Of a stretch of DNA of 64,000 nt, positions 4,660-49,184 are shown in pieces. The notes beneath the pieces are model-generated. The model did no database searches. It saw nothing but the letters and a program-made list of their open reading frames with translations, and was not told the origin of the DNA. The stretch is from an uncultured Erythrobacter sp. (GTDB lineage: Bacteria; Pseudomonadota; Alphaproteobacteria; Sphingomonadales; Sphingomonadaceae): assembly GCF_947492365.1 (NCBI RefSeq), contig NZ_CANLMB010000001.1:496001-560000 (forward strand), written 5' to 3'. The stretch's first letter is position 1. The number at the start of each line of letters is the position of its first letter. Position numbers and translations under genes: made by a program.

Positions 4660-5313
4660 TTACGCGCCGGTGCTTTCGTCCGCGCTCTCAGGCGCGTCAC
4701 CTTCGTCATCGATCGCCAGCCCGTGTTTCAGCAGCAGCGGTATCTGTGTGAAAGTAAACAGAAAACTCAGCGGCATAAATACCCAGAGCTTTGCCCAGAG
4801 CCAGCCTTCAAAGCTCATTTTTGCGACCAGAACCTCGTTCAGGACGGCCAATGTGAGAAAAAACACACCCCAATTGCGCGACAATTTGAGCCAGCCCTCA
4901 TCGTCAACGCCTTCGAACGCGGCTTCGAGCAGGATCTTGAGCAATGCGCGCCCCGTGAAAAATCCGATCAGCAGCGCGACGCCAAAGCCGGTATAGATAA
5001 TGGTCGGCTTCATTTGTACGAAACGCGGATCGCCGAAAAAGATTGTGAGCGCGCCAAATCCGACGATGAGCGCGGTCGAAAACCACAGCATCGGCGAGAT
5101 CTTACCCAGCCGCCATTTGGAGATCAGCAAGGCAGCAACCGCGGCGACCATGAACGCGCCGGTGCCCTTCATGATCGCGAGCAATTCGCCCGCTGCACTC
5201 GGCTCGTCCGGCGCGGTGAAGCGGTAGACGCCAAGGAACACCAGCAGGGGCCCGTAATCGACCGCGACATTGATCCAGCTGGATCCGGCTTTTTTCGCTT
5301 CTGTGTCAGCCAT
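4660..5313 (-). CDS. ispZ: Septation protein A family (YciB/IspZ) inner-membrane protein
   Basis: 217 residues with five to six transmembrane segments and the family pattern WFSTALIVGFGALTIFFGD followed by KPTIIY. YciB/IspZ proteins are inner-membrane proteins connected with intracellular septation and envelope integrity. The start ATG overlaps the ftsY stop by one base (TGATG), so the two are co-translated; ftsY next to ispZ is a common alphaproteobacterial order. The C-terminal 20 residues are acidic (Ala/Glu/Ser-rich) and variable. Family assignment is firm, biochemical function is not known in the family. Confidence 0.88.
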   Translation of the reverse strand: MADTEAKKAGSSWINVAVDYGPLLVFLGVYRFTAPDEPSAAGELLAIMKGTGAFMVAAVAALLISKWRLGKISPMLWFSTALIVGFGALTIFFGDPRFVQMKPTIIYTGFGVALLIGFFTGRALLKILLEAAFEGVDDEGWLKLSRNWGVFFLTLAVLNEVLVAKMSFEGWLWAKLWVFMPLSFLFTFTQIPLLLKHGLAIDDEGDAPESADESTGA

Positions 5314-6227
5314 CAGGCCACCCCTGCAATAACGCGCGCCACCAGATCGGGATCGAAGGGGCGCAAATCTTCCATCTTTTCGCCAACGCCAATCGCGTGG
5401 ATCGGCAGGCCATATTGTTCAGCCGCAGCGACCAGCACGCCGCCGCGCGCGGTGCCGTCCAGCTTGGTCATGATCAGGCCGGTAACGCCAGCGACTTCCT
5501 TGAACACGTCGATCTGGCTCAAAGCGTTCTGGCCGTTCGTGGCGTCGAGCACGAGCACCACATCGTGCGGCGCGTCTTCGTTAAGGCGGCCCAGCACGCG
5601 GCGGATCTTGGAGAGCTCTTCCATCAGCTCTTTCTTGTTCTGCAAGCGTCCTGCGGTGTCGACCACCAGCGCGTCGATCCCGGTGTCGGTCGCCTGCTTG
5701 ACCGCGTCGAACACGATAGAGGCGGGGTCGCCGCCTTCGGCACCGCGGACGATGTCCACGCCTGCACGCTCGGCCCAGGTCGCAAGCTGGCCGATTGCGG
5801 CAGCGCGGAACGTGTCGCCGGCTGCGAGCAAAACGCCGTAATCGTCCTCGGTAAAGAGGTGCGCGAGTTTGGCGATGGTGGTGGTCTTGCCCGATCCGTT
5901 GACCCCGATAACGAGGATCACTTGCGGGCGGGGAAAGGCGGTAATTTCAAGTGGCTTTGCCACGGGGCGCAGGATCTCGGCGATTTCCTCTGCCACCGCT
6001 TCCTTCAACTCGCGCTGGGTGATCTCGAGACCAAAACTTTTGTCCGAAAGCCGCTGGCGAATGCGGCCAGCCGCTGCAGGGCCAAGGTCGGAGACGATCA
6101 GCGCATCCTCGATATCATCGAGCGTCGCATCGTCGAGCCGCGTGGCAACGCCGGTAAGGTTCGAACCCAGCCGCTCGGATGTCTTGCGAAACCCGCCCAG
6201 CAGTCTGTCGGTCCAGCTTTTGCTCAT
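5313..6227 (-). CDS. ftsY: FtsY, signal recognition particle receptor GTPase
   Basis: 304 residues. An N domain (about 1-95) is followed by the G domain with P-loop GVNGSGKTTTIAK (108-120), the DTFRAAA box, DTAGR and TKLDGTARGG near the C-terminus. It is the membrane receptor for the Ffh-4.5S RNA complex and delivers membrane proteins to SecYEG. The protein is the short form without the long acidic A domain of enterobacterial FtsY, as is common in alphaproteobacteria. Its ATG overlaps the mtaB stop by four bases and its stop overlaps the ispZ start, placing it mid-operon. Confidence 0.97.
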   Translation of the reverse strand: MSKSWTDRLLGGFRKTSERLGSNLTGVATRLDDATLDDIEDALIVSDLGPAAAGRIRQRLSDKSFGLEITQRELKEAVAEEIAEILRPVAKPLEITAFPRPQVILVIGVNGSGKTTTIAKLAHLFTEDDYGVLLAAGDTFRAAAIGQLATWAERAGVDIVRGAEGGDPASIVFDAVKQATDTGIDALVVDTAGRLQNKKELMEELSKIRRVLGRLNEDAPHDVVLVLDATNGQNALSQIDVFKEVAGVTGLIMTKLDGTARGGVLVAAAEQYGLPIHAIGVGEKMEDLRPFDPDLVARVIAGVA

Positions 6228-7426
6228 GTGAGAAGGCCTTCTTCGAGCGATTGCGTTGTGATGGTCGTGATCCGTCCTGCCGAAGTGCCTTCGGGCAGGC
6301 GAATGCGGGCGTAATTGGGTGCATAGCCGGTGCCGTCGCGTTCGGCGAGGACGGGCAGCGTTTCGCCCACAAGCCTCTGCAGCCAGGCCTCGCGCTGCGC
6401 AGCGACGGCTCCGCGCAATTCGGCGGCACGCGACTTTACCAGAGCGCGGTCGACCTGCGGCATGCGTGCGGCGGGCGTGCCTGGGCGCGGCGAATAAGGG
6501 AAGATGTGGCCATGGACGATGTCCAGTTCCTCGATGATCGAAAGGTTGGCCGCATGATGCTCGCCCGCTTCGGTCGGGAAGCCTGCGATGAGGTCCGCGC
6601 CAATGGCTATTTCGGGGCGGCGCGCTTTGAGCCGCGACACCAGTTCCACCGCGTCGGCGCGGCTGTGGCGGCGCTTCATCCGCTTTAGAATGAGGTCGTG
6701 CCCGTGCTGGAGCGAGAGGTGGAGGTGCGGCATCAGCCGCTGCTCGCTGGCGAACAGGTCGAACAGGCCATCGTCAATTTCGATCCCGTCGAGCGAGGAC
6801 ATGCGCAGGCGTTGGAGATCGGGGAAGGTGTCGAGCACCGCTGCTACCAACGCTCCCAAAGGCGGCGTGTTAGGCAGGTCGTGCCCCCAACTGGTCACAT
6901 CGACGCCGGTCAGCACAACCTCCTTCGCGCCCAGATCAAGGTGATGCTCAACCTCGCGCAAGACCTGCGGGATCGTTTGCGAACGGCTTTTCCCGCGACC
7001 CTGCGGGATCACGCAAAAGGTGCAGGCATGGTCGCAGCCATTCTGCACAGCGATAAAGGCACGGGTGCGCGTTGGGGGAGGGGGCGCTTCGGGCAGCGGC
7101 ACGTTCCACACACGCGGATCGAGTTTGCTGGCGTTAGCGATCAAGCCGTCGACTTCGGGCATGTCGGCGAGCTGCTCGCGCTCGATATCAGCTGCGCAGC
7201 CGGTGACGATCAGGCGCGCATCGGGACGCGCGCGGCGGGCCTTGCGGATAGCTTGACGGGTCTGGCGCACCGCTTCGGATGTCACTGCGCAGGAATTGAC
7301 CACCACCACATCGCCCGCATCGGCAAGCATCGCGGTCATCCGCTCGCTCTCGGCGATGTTCAAGCGGCAGCCCAGCGAGATGACTTCGGGTTTGAGCGGG
7401 GACTTTAGGTCGGTTGGGGCGTTCAC
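6224..7426 (-). CDS. mtaB: MtaB, tRNA t6A37 methylthiotransferase (radical SAM)
   Basis: About 400 residues. The N-terminal UPF0004/MTTase domain carries three cysteines (near 20, 46, 77), beginning with the diagnostic SLGCRLN. The radical SAM core has CDHACTFC (cysteines near 131, 135, 138) and a C-terminal TRAM-like segment. It adds a methylthio group to t6A37 in tRNAs reading ANN codons; SLGCRLN separates MtaB from MiaB and RimO. I chose the GTG at 7426, which overlaps the dapF stop as GTGA; an ATG at 7441 would add five residues and overlap dapF by 19 bases. It overlaps ftsY downstream by four bases. Confidence 0.93.
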   Translation of the reverse strand: MNAPTDLKSPLKPEVISLGCRLNIAESERMTAMLADAGDVVVVNSCAVTSEAVRQTRQAIRKARRARPDARLIVTGCAADIEREQLADMPEVDGLIANASKLDPRVWNVPLPEAPPPPTRTRAFIAVQNGCDHACTFCVIPQGRGKSRSQTIPQVLREVEHHLDLGAKEVVLTGVDVTSWGHDLPNTPPLGALVAAVLDTFPDLQRLRMSSLDGIEIDDGLFDLFASEQRLMPHLHLSLQHGHDLILKRMKRRHSRADAVELVSRLKARRPEIAIGADLIAGFPTEAGEHHAANLSIIEELDIVHGHIFPYSPRPGTPAARMPQVDRALVKSRAAELRGAVAAQREAWLQRLVGETLPVLAERDGTGYAPNYARIRLPEGTSAGRITTITTQSLEEGLLT

Positions 7427-39102: not shown

Positions 39103-40083
39103 ATGGATACGCAGAAGATATCAAAGTCGCTTTTCGCCGCACCTGTTGCGGCGTTGTTTACACTTTCCGCCCCGGCGCTCGCCGATGGCGTGGATGCAGG
39201 TACTCTTATCGAGAACACTGCAACCGCGACCTATGACGATGGCGACGGGCCGCAGACGGTTGATTCGAACACCGTCGTGGTGCGGGTGGATGAGCTGATT
39301 GACGTCACCGTGACGTCGCTCGACAGCGGGCCGATTGGCACGTCGCCGGGCGAAGCGGTGCTCACTTTCGAAGTGACCAACCAGGGCAATGGCCCCGAGG
39401 CCTATGAGCTGACCGCCAATCCGGCGGTGGCTGGCAATGACTTTGATACGAGCGTCACCAACATCGCGGTCGATACCAATGGCAACGGCACTTACGATCC
39501 GGGCGTCGATGAAATCCTGACCGCGCCTGAGACCACTCAAGTTCTGGCCGCGGACGAGACGCTGACGGTCTTCGTCATCGTCGAGGTCCCGGTCGATGCC
39601 ACCGATGGTCAGGCAAGCGATGTCGAGCTGACTGCAGAAGCGGTTACCGGAACCGGGGCACCGGGCACGGTGTTTGCGGGTCAGGGCGTTGATGGCGGCG
39701 ATGCGATCATCGGCACAACCGGTGCGGATGACAGCGCGATCGGCACGCTGATCGTGGGCATCACCACGGTTGATCTCGACAAGAGCGTCACCGTTGTTGA
39801 TCCGTTCGGCGGCACCAGCGCCGTTCCAGGCTCGATCGCGACCTTTACGATTTTGGCCAATGCTCAGGGCAGCGGATCGGTTGACGATCTGGTTGTCACC
39901 GACGCGATCCCTGACGGCACGACCTATGTCGCAAATTCGCTCACCCTCGATGGCGGCGCGCTCACCGATGCCAGCGGCGATGATGCGGGTGAAGCATCCG
40001 ATGCGGCCGGCATTTCGGTTGATCTGGGCACCGTCGCAGGCGGCTCCAGCCACTCCATCACATTCGACGTCACGATCGATTGA
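39103..40083 (+). CDS. Exported DUF11-like repeat protein 1
   Basis: 326 residues. Signal peptide 1-27 (cleavage after ALA), then beta-rich modules of the DUF11/conserved-repeat type: SPGEAVLTFEVTNQGNG around 83-100 and VPGSIATFTILANAQGSGS near 243. A D-T-N-G-N-G-T-Y-D loop starts at residue 124, close to a calcium-binding EF-hand loop but lacking its last acidic residue. The start ATG has no clear ribosome site and may be leaderless or start at another position. First gene of a five-gene exported cluster, predicted periplasmic or surface-located. Function unknown. Confidence 0.82.
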   Translation: MDTQKISKSLFAAPVAALFTLSAPALADGVDAGTLIENTATATYDDGDGPQTVDSNTVVVRVDELIDVTVTSLDSGPIGTSPGEAVLTFEVTNQGNGPEAYELTANPAVAGNDFDTSVTNIAVDTNGNGTYDPGVDEILTAPETTQVLAADETLTVFVIVEVPVDATDGQASDVELTAEAVTGTGAPGTVFAGQGVDGGDAIIGTTGADDSAIGTLIVGITTVDLDKSVTVVDPFGGTSAVPGSIATFTILANAQGSGSVDDLVVTDAIPDGTTYVANSLTLDGGALTDASGDDAGEASDAAGISVDLGTVAGGSSHSITFDVTID

Positions 40084-40085
40084 AC

Positions 40086-40099
40086 CAACTGATCAGTTG
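40086..40099. promoter_or_regulatory. 14-base perfect palindrome before DUF11 gene 2
   Basis: CAACTGATCAGTTG lies between the stop of gene 1 and the GAGGAAA ribosome site of gene 2. It can be an operator or an RNA hairpin with a GATC loop. Confidence 0.5.
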
Positions 40100-40112
40100 A
40101 GGAAACAGACCC

Positions 40113-40592
40113 ATGAATATTCTCAAGAAAATGGCCGCAGCTCTGCTGATTGCCGGATCTGCGGCAATGCCAGCTGCTGCATTTGCGCAGAGCCCGGTTA
40201 CGCTTTCGGGCGATGTGAAGGCGGTTGAAACCTCGGTCGATGCCGATGGGAATGAGACCACGCAGCTGGTCGCGCCCGATGTCATCGTGCCAGGTGATCG
40301 CCTCGTTTTCGGAACCGACTACGCCAATAATGGCGCGGAGCCGGTCGAGAACTTCGTCGTCACCAACCCGCTTCCCACCGCAGTGCGCCTCGCTCCAGAT
40401 GCCGCTGCCGATCTGACCGTCTCGGTCGATGGAGGCGCAAGCTGGGGCACGCTCGCCGAACTCAGCGTTACTGCAGAGGACGGAACGAGCCGCGCGGCGA
40501 CCCATTCGGATGTCACGCATGTGCGCTGGACGCTCGCGACGATTGCGCCGGGCGACAGCGGACGGCTCGAATACCCCGCGATAATCCGCTGA
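40113..40592 (+). CDS. Exported DUF11-like protein 2 (single module)
   Basis: 159 residues. Signal peptide 1-26 (cleavage after AFA) and one beta-rich module: VPGDRLVFGTDYANNGAEPVENF with VVTNPLP, then VSVDGGASWG and a closing RWTLATIAPGDSGRLEYPAIIR typical of DUF11 folds. GAGGAAA upstream of the ATG is a strong ribosome site. Second gene of the exported cluster. Sphingomonads carry similar small proteins of unknown function; a pilin-like or scaffold subunit is conceivable. Confidence 0.82.
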   Translation: MNILKKMAAALLIAGSAAMPAAAFAQSPVTLSGDVKAVETSVDADGNETTQLVAPDVIVPGDRLVFGTDYANNGAEPVENFVVTNPLPTAVRLAPDAAADLTVSVDGGASWGTLAELSVTAEDGTSRAATHSDVTHVRWTLATIAPGDSGRLEYPAIIR

Positions 40593-40610
40593 AAAATTTC
40601 ACAAAATCTT

Positions 40611-40665
40611 CCGTCGTAAGACGGTTGGTAACCGCCATGTCCCGTGGGCGGTCTGAAGTCACGGG
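40611..40665 (+). promoter_or_regulatory. Structured leader of DUF11 gene 3: hairpin plus predicted H-type pseudoknot
   Basis: CCGTC-GTAA-GACGG forms a tetraloop hairpin at 40611-40624. Then ACCGCC (40631-40636) pairs with GGCGGT (40647-40652), and the loop segment CCCGTG (40641-40646) pairs with CACGGG (40660-40665). Both stems have six perfect pairs, no linker between them, and loops of four and seven bases, the geometry of a stable H-type pseudoknot. It ends 21 bases before the ATG. Ligand or protein partner unknown. Confidence 0.6.
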
Positions 40666-40686
40666 CGCACGCAGAGGACCACAACA

Positions 40687-41805
40687 ATGAAACGAACAAC
40701 CCAGCTGCTGGGTGCAGTTAGCGCGGTAGCGCTAGTTGCAATGTCCAGCACGCCGGCCTTGGCAGTCGGGACAACTGCTGGTGATACCATCACCAACAAT
40801 GTCTCGGTTTCCTTCCAGGTTGGCGGTGAAGACCAAACCGCTGTTACTGACAGCGATACCTTTACAGTTGACCGCGTCATCGACGTCAACGTCAACTTCA
40901 CTGGAACGAGTCCGGAATCGGTCTCGCCCGGCGAAGATAACGTTGTCCTCGCATTCGACGTGACCAACCTGTCGAACGACGTCGTCGATCTTGATCTCAG
41001 CACCGTCCTGACCGGCGGCACTGCGGCGAACATCGAAAACATCGAAATCTATCTCGATTCCGATGGTGACGGTGTTCTGGATGCAGGTGAACTGGCCGCA
41101 GGCCCGATCACCTTCCTCGACGAAGTGGCTGCCGATGACGGTACCGGTACCGAGACTATCTCAGTCCTCGTCGTCGCCGACATCACCACTGACGCAGTGA
41201 ACACTGACACGTTTGACATCGTGCTGGTTGCAGACGCGCATGAAGATGGCGGCATTGGCGTTCTTGGCGCCGAAATCACCGCTACTGCCGGTGCAAACAC
41301 TGCTGGTGTCGATACCGTTCTTGCCGATGGTAATGGCGGTACGGGCGAAGAAGCCGACAATGACGGCGCCTTCTCCGATCAAGGCCAGTTCGAAGTGGCA
41401 GGCGCTGAAGTCAGCGTCGTCAAGTCGAGCCGCATCATCAGCGACCCTGTCAATGGCACGACCGATCCGAAAGCAATTCCGGGTGCTGTTATCGAGTACT
41501 GCATCGCGGTCTCGAACGCTACCGGCGCTGCTACGGCAACGTCTGTCAGCGTGGCCGACGATCTGCCAGCTGACGTGACATTCACGGCCAGTGACTTCGG
41601 CATCTTTGTCGATGGCACCGCAACGATCGACACTTCGGGCGCAACCCCGGTGGCGACATGCGCTGGCGGCACCGATGGTGAGGGCACGACTGCTTCCTAC
41701 ACCGCTGGTGGCGGTACAGGTGGTCTTGACCTCATCGCTGGCACGCTCAGCGATCTCCCGGCGAGCACCACGCGTTCGCTCTATTTCCGCGTCACGATCA
41801 ACTAA
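40687..41805 (+). CDS. Exported DUF11-like protein 3 with EF-hand-type loop
   Basis: 372 residues. Signal peptide 1-26 (cleavage after ALA). A beta-rich first module (SPGEDNVVLAFDVTNLSND) leads to a canonical 12-residue EF-hand loop, D124-S-D-G-D-G-V-L-D-A-G-E135, then a second DUF11 module starting DPVNGTTDPKAIPGA (about 254-267), a motif shared with the fifth gene. It parallels protein 1 in layout, with the Asp loop starting at the same residue number. Predicted calcium-binding surface or periplasmic protein. Structured RNA precedes the gene. Confidence 0.83.
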   Translation: MKRTTQLLGAVSAVALVAMSSTPALAVGTTAGDTITNNVSVSFQVGGEDQTAVTDSDTFTVDRVIDVNVNFTGTSPESVSPGEDNVVLAFDVTNLSNDVVDLDLSTVLTGGTAANIENIEIYLDSDGDGVLDAGELAAGPITFLDEVAADDGTGTETISVLVVADITTDAVNTDTFDIVLVADAHEDGGIGVLGAEITATAGANTAGVDTVLADGNGGTGEEADNDGAFSDQGQFEVAGAEVSVVKSSRIISDPVNGTTDPKAIPGAVIEYCIAVSNATGAATATSVSVADDLPADVTFTASDFGIFVDGTATIDTSGATPVATCAGGTDGEGTTASYTAGGGTGGLDLIAGTLSDLPASTTRSLYFRVTIN

Positions 41806-41829
41806 GATCTGAACGGTAGGGAATAGACT

Positions 41830-44800
41830 TTGCGTGTGTCCCCCTCTTTGAGGCGTCTGGCGGCAGCACTTTCAGTAGTGCTGCTGCCATTTGGCGTGCT
41901 CGAAGAGGGGGCGTCCGCTCAGATTAATGGCTCTCAGGGTAATGGTACCGAAGTTATCGGCACGATTTCCAACACTGCTGAAGCCACTTACACGTTCGTG
42001 GGTCGCCCGGTGCGGACCCCGAGCAATACCGTGACACTGGATGTCACATCTCCACCCCCTTCTATTCGCACATTCCGTCCGGCTTCGACCGGCGGTGTGG
42101 ACCTCGATTTCCGTGCGCCGATTTGCGCGGCATCGGGTCAGAGTGGACAGGGCACGGGGGGCACCGGGAATACAAGTATCGAGCTTGCGCCGCTGAACGA
42201 CGCGGTCGAACAAAGCCAGATTGTCCGTGCAGGGCAGGTTCTGGTCTTTGAAGTGACCGCCCTGGCTGCCAATCTCGATCCCAACGCCGCCGATAGTCTC
42301 GAAATCACACTCACGACCTCTACAGGAGACCGTGAGACGGAGACGATTTTCGAAACCGGGCCGAACACCGGCGTTTTCGTAGGCCAGATCGATACTATCC
42401 GCATGCCGCCGAGCGTTGCGCAGGGCGATTGCCGCCTCAGCATCGTCGATGGCGCGGACATTACGGTCACCGCGACACTGCCGGGTGATACGACGGTCAT
42501 CGTCGAGACGCTGGTTGATGTGCTTGCCGATCCGTTTGGTGTCGTTTTCGACAGCGAAACCGGCCAGCCGGTCGATGGTGCGGTCGTGACTTTGATTGAT
42601 GTCGCCACCGGCCAGCCCGCAACGGTCTTTGCTGAAGACGGTGTTACCTCGTGGCCTTCAACGGTAATTTCGGGGCAACCGATCACCGATGGCGCTGGCA
42701 ATGTGACCGATCTGGGGGCGGGCGAGTTCTGGTTCCCGCTGACATTCCTCGGCACCTATCGCCTCGAAATCACGCCGCCTGAGCCTTACACAGCACCTTC
42801 CGTGGTCAGCCCGCAGGATCTTGCGCGCCTGACCCGCCCGGATGGCCGGGGTTTCGTGATCCTCGACGGTTCTTATGGCGGTGCTTTCACGCTGACCGAT
42901 CCGACGCCGGTCCAGATCGACATTCCGCTGGATCGACCAGGTCAGGATATCGGTCTTGTCAAAACCGCATCGCGCCAGCGTGTGCAGCCTGGAGACGTTG
43001 TTTTCTACTCGGTGACTGCGCGCAATGACGATCCCTCGCGCCCGCGCCGCAATGTGGTGCTGACCGACACGCCTGCGAGCGATCTGCGCCTGCGTCCTGA
43101 CTCCATCCGCATTGACGGTGTTGAAGCACCTGATGCGGTCGAAATTGCTGCCGATGGCCGCCAATTTACCATTTCGCTCGGCGATATCGAAGCTTCGGGC
43201 TCGCGCCGTGTCACATATGCGATGACTGTGCGTTCCGACGCGGCTCCGGGGCGTGCGCTGAATGATGTGCTTGTGATCGACAGCCTTGGTCGCACCGCTC
43301 GCACCAGCGTAGCCGTTGATATTGAACGCGAATCCATTGCGGACCGGATGACGATCATTGGCCGGATCACCGCTGGACCCTGTTCACTTGACGACCCACG
43401 TCCAGGAATTCCGGGTGTGCGCGTTGTGCTTGAGGACGGATCCTACGCGATCACCGATGCCGATGGCCGCTATCACTTCGAAGGCGTTGTCCCGGGTACA
43501 CATGTCGTCGCTGTGTCGCGCATGACGCTGCCGGAAGGTGCGGAGCTGGTTGATTGCCACCGCGATACCCGCAGTGCCGGTTCGACTAGTTCGCGCTTTG
43601 TCATTGGACGCGGCGGAAGCCTCGTTGTTGCTGACTTCCATGCGACAGTTCCCGAAGGATATGAAGCGCTTGCCGATGCTTCTTCACAAGCCGAAACACG
43701 TCCTGACGGTGCTGGCGCGCGCGCTGTTGACGCGATTGCTGGTGGTCCCGCACAGCGCGGCGCGCCTGCTCTCGACGCAGAAACGCTGACTGAAGCGGGT
43801 GTTGCTGAAAGCACTGCGGAAGCCGCTGCATCCGCCGAAATGTCCTATGCGCCCAACACGGACTGGATTGCGCTGGGTGATGGCGAAGACGGCTTCCTGA
43901 CGCCTGGGGTGACCGCGAACCCGCGTGCTCCGGCTATCCGCGTCGCTATCCGTCACCGCAAAGGCCAGACCGTGATCCTGCGCGTTAACGGCGAAGAAGT
44001 GAGCGGGCTCAACTTTGATGGCACTCTCAATCCGGAACGCGGCCAATTTGCTGTCAGCACATGGCGCGGCATCCTGCTTGAGAATGATCGCACCGTACTC
44101 GAAGCCGACATCGTCAACAGCTTTGGCATGGTGTCCAAGACCTTCACCCGCGAAGTGTTCTTCACCACCACGCCTTCGCGCGTTGAGATGGTGCCGGAAC
44201 TGTCGAACCTGATCGCTGACGGGCGCACCCGTCCTGTGGTCGCAATCCGTGTTCTCGACCGGAACAACCGCCCGCTGCGCGCCGGTGTTTCGGGCAATTT
44301 CACGCTCAACGCGCCGTATGAGAGCGCCGAGCAGATTGACCGCCAGCAGCTTAATCAGCTCACCGGCTTTGCCCCGACGTCGGCCCGCTGGGTTGTCGAA
44401 GGCACGGACGGCATTGCTCTAATCGAGCTTGCCCCGACCATGGTCAGCGGCTCGCTGCGCCTCGACTTCCAGTTCAACGATGGCGAGCTTGTGCGCGACC
44501 AGCAACTCGACGGCTGGATTGAACCGGGCGATATCGAATGGACCATTGTCGGCCTCGCCGAAGGCACTGTGGGTGCGCGTTCGGTCGCCGAGAATATGGA
44601 GCGCGAAGGCCGCTTTGACAGCGATCTGGGCGATGATGCGCGCGTTGCGCTCTATGCCAAGGGCCGCGTGCTGGGTCGCTACCTGCTGACGCTCGCCTAT
44701 GACAGCGCCAAGCAGCGTGAAGATCAGCGGGTGCTCGGCACAATCGACCCGCAGGCCTATTACACCGTTTTTGCCGATGGCTCGACCCGCCGCTTTGACG

Positions 44801-47064
44801 CTGCGAGCCGTGAGAAGCTCTATGTCCGCATCGAAACCTCGACCTTCTACGCACTTTATGGCGACTTCGAGACGAGCTTCGACCAGACAAACCTTGCGCG
44901 TTACAACCGCACAGCAACCGGTGTGCGCGGTGAAGCGCGCGTGGGCCAGTTCAAGGCGACTGCCTTTGCTGCTGAAATCTCCAGCCGCCTCCAGCGCGAC
45001 GAGATCCAGGGGCAGGGCATCACCGGTCCGTATCAGCTTTCGAACCGCGCAATCCTTGCCAATAGCGAGCGTGTGACGATTGAAGTGCGCGACCGCTTCC
45101 GTTCGGAACAGATCGTTTCGAGCCAGACGCTCACGCGCTTCCTCGACTACAATATCGACCTGTTCTCCGGCACGATCACCTTTGTCCGTCCGGTTCTGAG
45201 CCGCGATGAGTTTCTCAACCCGCAATTTGTCGTTGTCGAATATGAAACCGAAGGTCAGGGCAATGCCGAGCTGAATGCCGGTATTCGCGCCGACTGGACC
45301 AGCGCCGACGACCGCATTCGCATCGGTGTGAACGCAATCACTGACAAGGGCGAGGGCGCCCGTACAGATCTCGGCGCGATTGATGTGCGCGCACGCCTTG
45401 GCCAGAACACAGAGCTGCGCGGCGAATACGCCATGAGCCGCCGCAATGGCGAGAATGCAACCGGCTGGATTGCCGAAGTGCAGCACCAGACCGGCAAGCT
45501 CGATGTGCTCGCCTATGCCCGCCAGCTCGACGCCGATTACGGTGTGGGCCAGCAAAACGGCGTGGAGCTGGGTCGCCGCAAGATCGGTGTCGATGGCCGC
45601 GTATTCCTCAACGACAATCTCAGCGTGATTGGCAGCGTGTGGCAGGACGACAGCCTGACCGACAGCTCGCGCCGCCGCGCTGCGCAGGCTCAGGTGAACC
45701 TGACGCGCCGCAACACCGATGTTCGCCTTGGCCTGTCCTACTTTGACGACCTGCTTGCTGATGGCACGACCAACACTTCGACTGTGCTCGAAGCCGGCGT
45801 GACACAGCGCATGCTCGACAACACTCTGGAAGTGTCGCTCGCCACCTCAATCGCGCTCGACAGTGCCGAGAGCATCGACCTGCCCGCACGTCACCGCGTT
45901 GGAGTGCGCTATGCGCTGACCCGCAATGTGCGCCTGGTCGGCACTTACGAGATCACCGATGGCGAGAATATCGACGCGCGTCAGCTGCGCGGCGGTATCG
46001 AGGCAACCCCGTGGCAGGGTGGTCAGATCGTCACGACCTTGGGTCAGGAAACTATCGGCGAGTTCGGCAACCGCACCTTTGCAGCATTCGGCCTTGCCCA
46101 GACGCTGCAAGTATCGCCGGAATTCACGATCGACGCGACGATTGACGGCAATCGCACGATTGGCGGCACGCCGAACTCGAGCGACCTTATCAACCAGCTC
46201 CAGCCTGCCGCGAGCGGCGGTCAGCTGACCGGCAACCAGCAGTTCGAAGACTTCACCGCCTTCACGCTGGGCGGCGCATGGCGCAAGGACCGCTGGAGCG
46301 TTACCGCGCGCGGTGAATATCGCGATGGCGAACAGGCAGACCGCATGGGCGCAACCTTTGGCGCGATCCGTCAACTGGGCGAGGGCAGCATTGTCGGCTC
46401 TGGCGCAACATGGACGCGTGCCGAAGACGAAAACGGCCCGACCACTGAGATTTTCGATGCAAGCATCGCATTTGCTCACCGTCCCGACTCTTCGGAAGTC
46501 GCTATGCTGGGCAAACTCGAATATCGCAGCGACCGCGTAACCGGCGGCGTGGCTGGCCAAGCTGGCGGCGCAGGGCGCACCGCGTTGATCGTTGATGGCG
46601 ATGCAACTTCGCGCCGTCTCGTAGGCAGCTGGTCCACCAACTGGAGCCCACGCGGCTGGGACGAAGACGAGTTTGGCATCGAGCACCAGACCCGCCGCGA
46701 CGAATACACCTTGTTCCTTGGCGCGCGTCACAACTTCGACGAGTTCGAAGGCACCGAGTTCTCCGGCACTACCGTGCTTGCCGGTGTCGACTTCCGCCTT
46801 GGCGTGACTGACAAGATCGAAGTCGGCGCAAGCGGCACTGTGCGCGCCAACCTTGAAGATGATGTGACCAGCTATTCCTATGGCCCGACCATTGGCTTTG
46901 TTCCGGTCGAAGGCATGTTGCTCACCGTCGGCTATAATGTCGAAGGTTTCCGCGATGGCGACTTCTCGGCGGCGCGCAACACCGATGAAGGCCTGTTCGC
47001 CAGCGTTCGCTTCAAGTTCGACACCGACACATTTGACTTCCTTGGTCTGGGAGGTCGTCGATGA
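41830..47064 (+). CDS. Very large exported protein: DUF11 and carboxypeptidase-regulatory-like modules with C-terminal outer-membrane barrel
   Basis: 1744 residues. Signal peptide 1-31 (cleavage after ASA). A DUF11-like module lies at about 372-500 (VQPGDVVFYSVTARNDD), an SdrB/CarboxypepD_reg-like module at about 510-573 (GVRVVLEDGSYAITDADGRYHFEGV), an Ala/Glu-rich linker at 610-670, and from about 930 to the end many amphipathic beta strands with YYTVFADGS, ALYGDFETSF and YNRTATGVRGE motifs, read as an outer-membrane barrel of about 800 residues. The last residues are Gly/Arg, not Phe. The start is TTG at 41830 with AGGGA upstream; a GTG two codons later is the alternative. Function unknown; an exporter or anchor for the neighbouring DUF11 proteins is possible. 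Confidence 0.82.
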   Translation: MRVSPSLRRLAAALSVVLLPFGVLEEGASAQINGSQGNGTEVIGTISNTAEATYTFVGRPVRTPSNTVTLDVTSPPPSIRTFRPASTGGVDLDFRAPICAASGQSGQGTGGTGNTSIELAPLNDAVEQSQIVRAGQVLVFEVTALAANLDPNAADSLEITLTTSTGDRETETIFETGPNTGVFVGQIDTIRMPPSVAQGDCRLSIVDGADITVTATLPGDTTVIVETLVDVLADPFGVVFDSETGQPVDGAVVTLIDVATGQPATVFAEDGVTSWPSTVISGQPITDGAGNVTDLGAGEFWFPLTFLGTYRLEITPPEPYTAPSVVSPQDLARLTRPDGRGFVILDGSYGGAFTLTDPTPVQIDIPLDRPGQDIGLVKTASRQRVQPGDVVFYSVTARNDDPSRPRRNVVLTDTPASDLRLRPDSIRIDGVEAPDAVEIAADGRQFTISLGDIEASGSRRVTYAMTVRSDAAPGRALNDVLVIDSLGRTARTSVAVDIERESIADRMTIIGRITAGPCSLDDPRPGIPGVRVVLEDGSYAITDADGRYHFEGVVPGTHVVAVSRMTLPEGAELVDCHRDTRSAGSTSSRFVIGRGGSLVVADFHATVPEGYEALADASSQAETRPDGAGARAVDAIAGGPAQRGAPALDAETLTEAGVAESTAEAAASAEMSYAPNTDWIALGDGEDGFLTPGVTANPRAPAIRVAIRHRKGQTVILRVNGEEVSGLNFDGTLNPERGQFAVSTWRGILLENDRTVLEADIVNSFGMVSKTFTREVFFTTTPSRVEMVPELSNLIADGRTRPVVAIRVLDRNNRPLRAGVSGNFTLNAPYESAEQIDRQQLNQLTGFAPTSARWVVEGTDGIALIELAPTMVSGSLRLDFQFNDGELVRDQQLDGWIEPGDIEWTIVGLAEGTVGARSVAENMEREGRFDSDLGDDARVALYAKGRVLGRYLLTLAYDSAKQREDQRVLGTIDPQAYYTVFADGSTRRFDAASREKLYVRIETSTFYALYGDFETSFDQTNLARYNRTATGVRGEARVGQFKATAFAAEISSRLQRDEIQGQGITGPYQLSNRAILANSERVTIEVRDRFRSEQIVSSQTLTRFLDYNIDLFSGTITFVRPVLSRDEFLNPQFVVVEYETEGQGNAELNAGIRADWTSADDRIRIGVNAITDKGEGARTDLGAIDVRARLGQNTELRGEYAMSRRNGENATGWIAEVQHQTGKLDVLAYARQLDADYGVGQQNGVELGRRKIGVDGRVFLNDNLSVIGSVWQDDSLTDSSRRRAAQAQVNLTRRNTDVRLGLSYFDDLLADGTTNTSTVLEAGVTQRMLDNTLEVSLATSIALDSAESIDLPARHRVGVRYALTRNVRLVGTYEITDGENIDARQLRGGIEATPWQGGQIVTTLGQETIGEFGNRTFAAFGLAQTLQVSPEFTIDATIDGNRTIGGTPNSSDLINQLQPAASGGQLTGNQQFEDFTAFTLGGAWRKDRWSVTARGEYRDGEQADRMGATFGAIRQLGEGSIVGSGATWTRAEDENGPTTEIFDASIAFAHRPDSSEVAMLGKLEYRSDRVTGGVAGQAGGAGRTALIVDGDATSRRLVGSWSTNWSPRGWDEDEFGIEHQTRRDEYTLFLGARHNFDEFEGTEFSGTTVLAGVDFRLGVTDKIEVGASGTVRANLEDDVTSYSYGPTIGFVPVEGMLLTVGYNVEGFRDGDFSAARNTDEGLFASVRFKFDTDTFDFLGLGGRR

Positions 47065-49184
47065 GCGATACAAGTGTTTTCAACAAGGTAAACCCCTTGT
47101 TTACCATGAATAAGTACGCAAGCCAGATGAGTTTGACACGGTTGCAAATCCGGATTGAGCGCACGCTTCTCATCGCCATTCAGGCGGCAATTGCGCTGCT
47201 GTGTCTGGCATTTGCGCAACCTGCCATGGCGCAGACCACCAACACTTATGTGGTCACCAATGACGGTACGATCAGCGGCTCCACCCCGTGCGGCACGCCG
47301 CTGGTGCGCAACTTCGTTGTCGGCGACAGTTTTACGGTTGCGGATGTCGATCTGGGCTTCTTCGCGACGCACACTTGGCGCGGTGATATTCGCGTGACCC
47401 TGCAGGCACCCGATGGCACGCGAGTACAGCTGGTCAATGGTGAGACGAACAACACCAATGGCGACAATATCAATGTCCTGCTGGACGACGACTTCGCCAC
47501 CGTCGTCAACTCGACCAACATTACCGTCGCGCATTCGACAGTCGCTCCGCCGCCTTTCGAAAACAACCGCGCGCCTAACAATGCTCTTTCAGCGTTTAAC
47601 GGCGTAAGCAGTGCAGGCACGTGGCGCCTCGAAATCTGCGACCTGTTCACGGGCGCTGATGATGGCATCTTCCGGCATGCTGAGTTGTATTTGACGTCTG
47701 CAGTCCCAGCCAATTTCGCCGATCTGTCGCTGACAAAAGCACTGGTGGGATCGCCGCCGGTTCAGGGCGGGAGCGTGACATGGCGCCTTACTGTGACCAA
47801 CAACTCGGCTTCACCCGACACGGCCACAGGCGTTGTGGTGAATGACAATCTGCCCACCGGTTTCACCTTTCTGTCCGCAAGCGGAGATGGCAGCTTTAAC
47901 CAGGCCAGCGGCGATTGGACTGTGGGCTCGCTTGCACCGGGTGAAAGCAAGACAATCACCTTGCAAGGCTCAATCTCGAGCGCGGCGGGCACGACGATTA
48001 CCAATACTGCCGAAGTCGTTGCATCGAGTGAGGTCGACAGCGATTCCACCGTGAACAATGGCGCGACGGGCGAAGACGATTTCGCTTCGTCATCTTTCAC
48101 CGTGCAAAGCGGTCGTTCGCCGGGTGTCCCGCCAATTTTGTCCTGCCCGGCGGGGCAGTCTGTGTTCGATTGGGATACGATACCTGGCTGGACCACCGGG
48201 TCGACCAACAACACCTATGCGTTTGCAAGCTTTGGCAACATTCAGTTCCAGCTTTCGAATGACGGCGCATTCCTCAACAGCGCCAATTTCGGCGGACAGA
48301 CGCCGACCGTCTTCAACTATTACACGGGCGGCATTTCCCCTGCTGAAGACAGCCTTCACATGCTCGCCGATCAGGCCAACCAGTCGGGCGATGTGACGAT
48401 TGTCATCACATTGCCGCGTAGCTTCACCGGCCTGCAATTCTCGATCTTTGACGTCGATTTCGGTGCAAACCAGTTTGCCGACCGGGTTCAGGTTACCGGG
48501 ACCAATAGCGGCGCCAGCGTCACGCCGACATTGACCAACGGCAATGTCAACTTCGTCAGCGGGAACGTGGTAATCGGCGATGGGGCTTCGACTGAAACAC
48601 AGCCATTGGGCAATGTGGTCGTGACCTTCACACAGGCTGTAGACACGATCACGATCAGCTATGGCAACCACACCACGGCGCCGACCGATCCTGGTCAGCA
48701 GGGTATCTCGATCCACGATATCAATGTCTGCAACCCGTTCACCACGTTGAATGTGAGCAAGGTCAGCTCGCTCATCTCCGATCCGGTCAATGGCTCCACG
48801 AACCCCAAGGCCATTCCTGGCGCGACGGTGGAGTATCTCATCACCGTCACCAACACCGGCGGCGAACCGGCTGATGCGGATAGTGTCGTGGTCTGGGACG
48901 ATGGCCCTGCCGATGCCAAGATGTGCCTGATCACGCGAGCGGCAGGGCCTGTCATCTTCGCTGATCCGGGGAGCAACTCGGGGCTGACCTATGGCTTTAC
49001 CAGCCTCGCAGCGACAACGGATGACGTGGAATTCTCCAACGATGACGGGGTAAATTTCAATTATACGCCCACCGCTGATGGCGATGGCTGCGACAGCGCG
49101 ATCACCGATTTCCGGGTGCTTCCGGGCGGTGCATTCGGCGCCGGCGGCAATTTCACCGTCACCGTGCGCTATATTATCGAATAG
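47061..49184 (+). CDS. Exported protein with P-type (proprotein convertase) domain and DUF11 modules
   Basis: 707 residues. A long basic N-region precedes the signal peptide core (cleavage near residue 57, after AMA). A P-domain-like jelly roll follows (about 60-210; GTWRLEICDLF near its end), then DUF11 modules at about 218-330 and 565-707. The last begins DPVNGSTNPKAIPGA like protein 3. The P domain stabilises or targets substrate in secreted proteases, but no catalytic domain is present. The ATG overlaps the stop of the 1744-residue gene as ATGA, with GGGAGG upstream, proving coupled translation. Predicted cell-surface protein. Confidence 0.82.
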   Translation: MSDTSVFNKVNPLFTMNKYASQMSLTRLQIRIERTLLIAIQAAIALLCLAFAQPAMAQTTNTYVVTNDGTISGSTPCGTPLVRNFVVGDSFTVADVDLGFFATHTWRGDIRVTLQAPDGTRVQLVNGETNNTNGDNINVLLDDDFATVVNSTNITVAHSTVAPPPFENNRAPNNALSAFNGVSSAGTWRLEICDLFTGADDGIFRHAELYLTSAVPANFADLSLTKALVGSPPVQGGSVTWRLTVTNNSASPDTATGVVVNDNLPTGFTFLSASGDGSFNQASGDWTVGSLAPGESKTITLQGSISSAAGTTITNTAEVVASSEVDSDSTVNNGATGEDDFASSSFTVQSGRSPGVPPILSCPAGQSVFDWDTIPGWTTGSTNNTYAFASFGNIQFQLSNDGAFLNSANFGGQTPTVFNYYTGGISPAEDSLHMLADQANQSGDVTIVITLPRSFTGLQFSIFDVDFGANQFADRVQVTGTNSGASVTPTLTNGNVNFVSGNVVIGDGASTETQPLGNVVVTFTQAVDTITISYGNHTTAPTDPGQQGISIHDINVCNPFTTLNVSKVSSLISDPVNGSTNPKAIPGATVEYLITVTNTGGEPADADSVVVWDDGPADAKMCLITRAAGPVIFADPGSNSGLTYGFTSLAATTDDVEFSNDDGVNFNYTPTADGDGCDSAITDFRVLPGGAFGAGGNFTVTVRYIIE

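Follow-up and report, generated by a model that had tools for sequence, protein, structure and literature searches.

A conserved operon of exported DUF11 proteins in Erythrobacter and its relatives, with a split isopeptide domain and a very large predicted outer-membrane barrel

The locus and its conservation

We analysed a 64,000-nucleotide stretch of DNA (NZ_CANLMB010000001.1, positions 496,001-560,000; hereafter the window) from a 3.16 Mb genome whose close relatives bear the name Erythrobacter in our genome scan. The window carries a cluster of five genes, here called A to E, in which the DUF11 domain is split between different gene products, and which may encode a surface fibre. The original prediction for this DNA described five consecutive genes on the same strand, and all five open reading frames (ORFs) are indeed found on the + strand:

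39103..40083, + strand: gene A, a secreted shaft- or adaptor-type subunit of 326 residues with a donor hairpin, an immunoglobulin-like (Ig) domain and a C-terminal incomplete DUF11
40113..40592, + strand: gene B, 159 residues, a single DUF11-like domain without donor hairpin, proposed as a non-covalent cap or chaperone
40687..41805, + strand: gene C, 372 residues, the proposed major shaft subunit
41830..47064, + strand: gene D, 1744 residues with a TTG start, a candidate outer-membrane anchor or exporter
47061..49184, + strand: gene E, 707 residues, a candidate variable tip with a P-domain, a complete DUF11 and an acceptor DUF11

Each product begins with a signal-peptide-like segment, judged from the sequence by eye, in agreement with the signal peptides proposed for all five. 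The start codon of E overlaps the stop codon of D as ATGA and GGGAGG lies upstream of E, as expected from the coupling of these two genes that had been suggested. DUF11-like modules had been assigned to four of the genes. In our searches A, C, D and E lie above a curated cut-off, B is recognised by matches below the cut-off and by profile comparison only, and the barrel protein D also carries such a module. By Pfam, D and E exceed the DUF11 cut-off, A and B fall below it and C gives no match, while the NCBIfam model TIGR01451 is above cut-off in A, C, D and E and not in B. A genome-wide DUF11 search listed eight matches at E<=10, four of which reach the cut-off (one of them together with its neighbours). 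All four sit in the cluster together with two weaker ones, and the remaining two (E 0.5-0.9) lie in one 1829-residue frame elsewhere. Calcium-type loops had been noted in two of the small proteins. The loop of A (residues 124-137) is strongly conserved, with D124, N126, N128, G134 and D136 each kept in at least 99 percent of sequences, and the loop of C is much less conserved.

A-B-C-D is a conserved operon. The four genes stand in this order on one strand in 68 of the 72 loci that extend 3 kb or more upstream of D, and the four exceptions (L119, L121, L128, L132) are labelling artefacts in which A-type, B and C-type ORFs are present in order. The co-occurrence is therefore not a matter of chance. 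Across 70 loci, A, B, C and D show medians of 63, 58, 59 and 65 percent identity to the window. The expectation that the genes would be conserved together held, with the correction that E is variable and sometimes absent or relocated.

D was detected in 24 of the 61 genomes searched, all of them among the 37 members of its genus (the window's own genome included), and one of the 24 (G019) has only a distant relative. From a scan of named genomes the best 80 of 156 relatives were kept, and the genera among these best 80 include Erythrobacter, Qipengyuania, Parerythrobacter, Pontixanthobacter, Porphyrobacter, Tsuneonella, Novosphingobium and others. Matches occur in 10 of 289 genomes across the class and in 46 of 299 across the phylum, partial and weak matches included; 25 of these 46 belong to one family outside the class. 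We opened 16 loci outside the genus (four from the same family, one from the same class and 11 from other classes of the phylum). In 14 of the 16 a B gene comes first, then between one and three shaft-type genes, then D (weakly in L218), and L228 and L229 lack this order.

Some genomes depart from the single standard locus. Genome G031 apparently holds two very similar operon copies far apart (L055 6608-11753 and L047 7855-12999), one with D split into two frames, as well as a divergent third one (L054). The same genus also contains a more remote form of the system, a distant relative at L058 5919-17344, L059 6443-16713 and L060 5990-15496. At L059 and L060 several DUF11-type proteins end in strands like TYTCSVD or TYTCQVN beside a separate barrel gene, and some begin with an NTAT...NNSAT hairpin. 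At L058 a single 2579-residue DUF11 protein adjoins the barrel gene, and at L059 genes that we labelled by eye as LysM-like and CHASE2-like follow.

A DUF11 domain divided between proteins

DUF11 has been renamed CLIPPER (PF01345), and its domains are described as carrying an autocatalytic Lys-Asp-Asn isopeptide triad (PMC12617251). The bond and catalytic residues of the crystal structure 9IFR are Lys715, Asp748 and Asn806 (PMC12617251). The complete DUF11 of E has Lys226, Asp262 and Asn315 at corresponding places, with spacings of 36 (Lys-Asp) and 89 (Lys-Asn) residues; those of 9IFR, by the numbers in PMC12617251, are 33 and 91. PDB sequence searches with the complete DUF11 of E and with two DUF11 profiles gave weak, apparently chance matches only and did not recover 9IFR, so that the register of the triad is taken from the residue numbers printed in PMC12617251 and from the alignments made here. 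A whole triad within one domain is also present in the internal DUF11 of D. The C-terminal domains of A, C and E stop before the Asn, and B has no Asp. We refer to these open C-terminal domains as acceptors and to the N-terminal hairpins that carry an Asn as donors:

39205..39285, + strand: donor hairpin of A (residues ~35-61) with donor Asn38, Asn in 66 of 70 aligned sequences
39763..40080, + strand: acceptor DUF11 of A, stopping before the terminal hairpin, with Lys227 and Asp267, each in 70 of 70
40783..40872, + strand: donor hairpin of C with donor Asn37, Asn in 72 of 72
41404..41802, + strand: acceptor DUF11 of C with Lys246 and Asp291, both in 75 of 75; its last strand is the one that would precede the hairpin
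41959..42045, + strand: donor hairpin of D with donor Asn48, Asn in 77 of 78
42943..43335, + strand: internal complete DUF11 of D with the triad Lys378, Asp413 and Asn478, kept in 79, 80 and 79 of 81
48738..49181, + strand: acceptor DUF11 of E with Lys567 and Asp613; E has no donor hairpin

The C-terminal DUF11 domains of A, B and C lack the hairpin that closes complete DUF11s. Profile comparison places their ends at position 92 of the 132 in a broad DUF11 alignment, at most one residue from the protein end; in the Pfam DUF11 match of A the last aligned position is 87 of 114, a single codon beyond the stop. A pattern describing this kind of C-terminal end, in its relaxed form, is found in 69/71 A, 71/73 B, 73/75 C and 58/63 E sequences, 2/81 D sequences and 46/1996 controls, and in its strict form in 30/63 E, 1/81 D and 14/1996 controls; since the pattern was written after inspection of these proteins, the contrast with the controls is descriptive.

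The missing hairpin appears at the other end of the proteins. The N-terminal hairpins of A, C and D lie directly after the signal peptides and are mutually homologous (A-D E=1e-11, A-C 8e-9, C-D 1e-5). They align on the terminal hairpin of complete DUF11s; in six comparisons 0, 0, 0, 0, 1 and 2 of 150 column-permuted controls scored as high. When the hairpins are aligned to the complete domain of E, the donor Asn falls on the bond-forming Asn. At a threshold of 10 bits the hairpin models detect their own families (A 69/71, C 72/75, D 79/81), and those of D and C recover 68/71 and 66/71 A sequences, respectively. At the same threshold none of the three models matched B (0/73), E (0/63) or the control ORFs (0/1996).

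The residues needed for the predicted bond are conserved on both sides of the split. All four residues of the set formed by C and D are kept in 71 of the 71 loci with ungapped C and D, the window included. Only Lys227 of the three lysines in the window's A is conserved at 94 percent or more, and the Lys and Asp of the split domain of E are kept in 59 and 60 of 62 sequences. The position of the catalytic Asp in B is occupied by Asn in 69, Ser in two and Thr in two of 73 sequences, and its Lys is present in 45 of 72. Outside the genus, the loci mostly keep the triad pattern, and near the catalytic position B has Asn, Asp, Ser or Ala, both read by eye.

A and C each hold a donor and an acceptor in one chain, and the hairpin of one molecule might therefore fold onto its own C-terminal DUF11 and form an intramolecular bond in what would be a permuted domain, giving stable monomers. 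The model of A has a predicted local distance difference test (pLDDT) score of 94.5 with hairpin block means of ~97, so that the hairpin is probably packed on something. However, the Ig domain (~36-193) abuts the C-terminal domain (~193-299), each matched alone, without a linker, which makes self-closure of A awkward. The internal DUF11 of D needs no completion, so the donor that D carries should act on another protein; E in turn is an acceptor without a donor, and both need a partner. We therefore regard self-closed subunits as rather unlikely.

Two loci deviate from the conserved triad at several places. In L124 the triad of the internal DUF11 of D is wholly lost along with the donor Asn of A, and E is a doubtful 1628-residue frame with an odd end. 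In L140 the internal DUF11 of D has lost Lys and Asn, together with the donor Asn of A, and the Lys and Asp of E are also gone. In these loci the chemistry seems to have disappeared as one unit. The joint loss of the A donor and the E acceptor in L124 and L140 would hint at a pairing of the two (Fisher p = 0.012, 55 loci), but the numbers are small and the E frame of L124 is odd, so we did not use it.

The barrel protein, the variable gene and an RNA element

Two further features were recognised in D:

43405..43521, + strand: carboxypeptidase-regulatory-like domain of D (Pfam)
44542..47010, + strand: predicted outer-membrane beta-barrel of D (AlphaFold2 model), with short strands near residues 1080-1120 that might form an inserted plug-like domain

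The 1744-residue protein had been predicted to end in a large barrel, and AlphaFold2, run on the C-terminal 1062 residues with 40 sequences, also predicts one. DSSP assigned 30 long strands to model residues 450-1008 (D ~1132-1690) and 7-8 shorter ones before them, for a total of roughly 36-38; the short early strands lie partly in low-confidence stretches, and model residues 225-258 and 277-311 fall below pLDDT 50. VIA-align placed the FimD usher first (Z 16.6, root-mean-square deviation (rmsd) 7.5, 335 aligned), with SprA at Z 14.8, rmsd 4.6 and 317 aligned, and the first PDB match of Foldseek was the trimeric Deinococcus SlpA (E=2e-7; template modelling score (TM-score) 0.23-0.25, rmsd 21.8); a family outside the matches listed in such a fold comparison is not thereby excluded. 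Together with VDAC, these matches support a very large outer-membrane barrel in the predicted structure of the C-terminal part of D, but not its exact kin.

Sequence searches placed the barrel in no established family. The barrel part of D has no Pfam or NCBIfam family above cut-off, and that of the window gives one weak OMP_b-brl match below it. Among 40 relatives scanned at E<=1, Invasin_D3 was seen in 13, Big_1 in seven and MtrB_PioB in four. A PDB sequence search with D gave no match. Usher (PF00577) has no match in D at E<=1 and none in the whole genome at E<=0.001, where the PapD-type chaperone (PF00345) likewise gives none. The SprA family is not among the NCBIfam matches of D, which at E<=0.1 list only DUF11-repeat and isopeptide-domain models.

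These fold matches bear on two other readings of the operon. With FimD and SprA among the closest folds by VIA-align, and short strands early in the predicted barrel that could be a plug, D might act only as an outer-membrane exporter that releases unattached DUF11 adhesins or matrix proteins, the subunits acting separately. Such a role leaves unexplained both the split triad kept in 71 of 71 loci and the donor hairpin at the N-terminus of D, and we consider export alone to be quite improbable. D might also be a surface-layer-type barrel like the Deinococcus SlpA complex, with the DUF11 proteins coating the barrels or linking them into a sheet. The rank of trimeric SlpA in Foldseek speaks for a lattice, as does the frequent occurrence of DUF11 proteins in envelopes (PMC12617251). 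The SlpA match is, however, poor in detail, as the TM-score and rmsd given above indicate, and a donor-only D, an acceptor-only E and two-ended A and C fit a linear chain better than a sheet. A surface lattice therefore seems unlikely to us.

E is a variable, sometimes absent or relocated member of the cluster and not a conserved fifth subunit. A gene of at least 300 residues starts within 60 nucleotides of the stop of D in 62 of 73 loci, with the ATGA overlap in 40 of those 62. The median identity of E to the window is 41 percent over 58 loci; L110 and L111, in which the gene after D is short and unrelated, are counted among these. Identity to the window in L066 is 82 percent for D, 40 percent for residues 60-560 of E and 76 percent for the C-terminal part of E. 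The ten E fronts that we scanned include a P-domain, CshA_NR2 with SpaA_3, a right-handed beta helix and DUF6923. As the fronts can differ even between the relatives with the most similar D, E behaves like a variable tip. In L031, L037 and other loci the N-terminus of E has a motif of the type VNxLFTMxxYxxxM before the signal peptide, though the rest of E varies.

The gap between B and C holds a structured RNA:

40626..40668, + strand: H-type RNA pseudoknot between B and C, upstream of the ribosome site of C (covariation, covariance model)

Stem 1 was found in 51 of 58 intergenic sequences (the seven others being L112, L116, L124, L130, L138, L140 and L063). In these 51 the loop pairs with the downstream strand (stem 2) over 7.1 of 8 consecutive bases on average. 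Shuffling the downstream sequence lowers this mean run to 4.3, with 4.7 as the highest mean in 500 shuffles, and exchanging strands between unlike loci lowers it to 5.2. Thirteen further loci were left out of this run test as the start of C was not found by its motif. L063, cut short in the run test by the choice of start, is included in the covariation set, which comprises the 32 ungapped rows that have a 9-base loop 3. In this set 8 of 13 pairs change on both sides, with 28 cells against 6.0 in shuffles and 0 of 500 shuffles as high.

In the window's genome the covariance model finds one strong site (30.7 bits, E=4e-5), and the next has E=0.14. Over the 61 genomes 22 sites were found at E<=3e-8, 21 of them in the B-C gap and the last (G013) on an unopened contig; weaker matches elsewhere (E 9e-5 to 0.1; 48 of 61 genomes with some match at E<=0.1) were taken as background. 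Rfam gave no match at gathering score. At E<=10 it listed one unrelated weak CRISPR-repeat match (E 5.9; 12.6 bits against a cut-off of 39), which was rejected. A riboswitch reading was dropped, as no conserved ligand-type loop was noticed, though no dedicated test for one was made.

Among the five genes, codon adaptation is highest for C in 29 of 35 loci, and its mean is lowest for E; the weights for the other loci were taken from the ribosomal genes of the window's genome. In the window, out of 38 other genes, C exceeds 36, A and D each exceed 35, B exceeds 24 and E exceeds 23. C is the likely major subunit, and the pseudoknot probably serves to increase or adjust its output; control of the major subunit would be the simplest reading of the RNA and codon data.

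A proposed self-locking fibre and its relation to known systems

From the sequence features described, we consider it moderately probable that the operon encodes a covalently self-locking surface fibre of the order E (tip)-A/C (shaft)-D (barrel anchor). A to E would, as is standardly assumed, be exported by Sec. The C-terminal barrel of D would then insert in the outer membrane as the base and possibly also as the exit pore. The N-terminal hairpin of one subunit would complete the C-terminal DUF11 of the next, and a Lys-Asn isopeptide bond would close by itself. With donors on A, C and D and acceptors on A, C and E, the simplest linear chain is E-(A/C)n-D, which would place the variable modules of the acceptor-only E at the tip and the donor-only D at the other end of the two-ended A and C. 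The least certain step concerns B, an acceptor-like protein without the catalytic Asp, which might bind donor hairpins reversibly as a cap and so serve as a chaperone or control length. A set of secreted subunits with an outer-membrane protein that anchors or exports them, as first proposed, is still the best description of the cluster, and the split domain sharpens it.

Several observations weigh against the fibre. The support comes from single-chain models and sequence, and the bond, the fibre and the complex are predictions. The profile alignment of E stops at 54 of 132, short of the protein end, so that the C-terminal pattern alone speaks for an open end in E. The two complete-DUF11 templates that worked in the hairpin comparison share sequences, and the internal DUF11 of D, tried as a template, was discarded with 52, 83 and 84 of 150 permuted controls equally high. 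The reach of the hairpin models across families at 10 bits is uneven: the A model finds 43/75 C and 58/81 D, the D model 2/75 C and the C model 1/81 D. The donor Asn of A is lost in 4 of 70 sequences, and the Lys or Asp of E is lost or unaligned in 4 of 63. Outside the genus, the donor Asn gives way to Ser in A of L215 and in D of L216 and L219.

The same caution applies to the barrel, the tip and the RNA. The barrel model is of moderate quality (mean pLDDT 74.4, predicted TM-score 0.67), and VDAC (Z 14.2, VIA-align) nearly equals the usher and SprA. In 11 of 73 loci no E-type gene was found adjoining D (four with no gene called and seven with a short gene; some contigs are short). In the Novosphingobium loci L101, L110 and L111 an E-like DUF11 gene lies upstream of A (~4980-7015), and no E-type gene was found after D. 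At 30.7 bits and with a stem-2 run of 6 of 8 pairs, the window's pseudoknot falls far short of those in its relatives. The genome also has one sortase-family gene (PF04203, 62.4 bits, G000:C1:47203-47559, L231), ~490 kb from the cluster; it is the only PF04203 match listed in the genome, and none lies in the cluster. A part for a sortase therefore keeps some probability, but as no subunit bears a sorting signal the probability given to the fibre was not lowered.

More tentatively, and with some doubt on our part, the operon may represent a new class of Gram-negative fibre that occurs across two or more classes of a single phylum. In such a fibre successive subunits would share a naturally split isopeptide domain, the tip would be exchangeable, a ~36-stranded barrel would form the base and a decoy acceptor, B, lacking the catalytic Asp, would time the closure of the joint, without chaperone-usher genes or sorting signals. 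It would add a class to the known Gram-negative fibres and a new bacterial way of building them, with covalent joints that close without an enzyme. Bacteria would then have had a split self-ligating domain long before protein engineers. Sphingomonads would gain an adhesion system open to test, and each lineage a new protein-ligation pair. The layout predicts the effects of replacing Lys, Asp and Asn, and ladders stable in sodium dodecyl sulfate.

The original prediction, which knew of no described system with this layout, would have been overturned by the lack of a barrel, by a lack of co-conservation or by a match to a known system. Instead, a barrel is predicted, A-B-C-D are kept together, and no known system was matched in Pfam, NCBIfam or PDB sequence searches. 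In the open-access PMC literature (closed-access papers and preprints lie outside this scope) no title among the matches listed describes this operon or a split DUF11. Type 11 secretion was dropped as a candidate, the matching passages of PMC12282271 concerning DUF1194 with DUF11 mentioned once, and PMC10458587 was dropped as it has no mention of DUF11.

Comparison with established systems gives the proposed fibre several partial counterparts. In chaperone-usher pili an N-terminal extension completes the next subunit, and a large outer-membrane barrel, a variable tip adhesin and an abundant shaft subunit are combined. The proposed subunit completion, large barrel, variable tip and abundant shaft of this operon would correspond to these. 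However, the completing element here would be a hairpin rather than a single strand, the link is predicted to be covalent, and the genome has no Usher or PapD matches. Gram-positive sortase pili consist of isopeptide-linked subunits with tip, shaft and base, and need a sortase and an LPXTG signal. The proposed tip, shaft and base would be linked in the same covalent manner, but no LPXTG sorting signal is found in A-E of the window, the bond would form by itself, and the base would be a barrel. SpyTag/SpyCatcher was engineered from a CnaB domain, an isopeptide domain split in two pieces that rejoin covalently; the operon would be a natural, polymerising counterpart in a CnaA-like domain. SprA, the type 9 translocon, and Deinococcus SlpA resemble the predicted barrel of D as very large single-chain outer-membrane barrels among its fold matches, whereas D has no match to their sequence families, and the partners and gene neighbourhood are different.

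At the level of the domain, 9IFR belongs to the same CLIPPER family with Lys, Asp and Asn spaced similarly; the triad there lies in one chain, while here the Asn is placed on the separate N-terminal hairpins of A, C and D (PMC12617251). At the level of the assembly, the nearest described system is the archaeal thread of Sulfolobus, whose subunits are joined head to tail through donor strand complementation and, it appears, an isopeptide bond between subunits (PMC9715654). This bond links the alpha-amino group of the N-terminal Asp24 to Asn57 between subunits n and n+2 (PMC9715654). The thread, which has no outer-membrane barrel, differs from the operon described here in its subunit and in the bond chemistry that is predicted for the operon.

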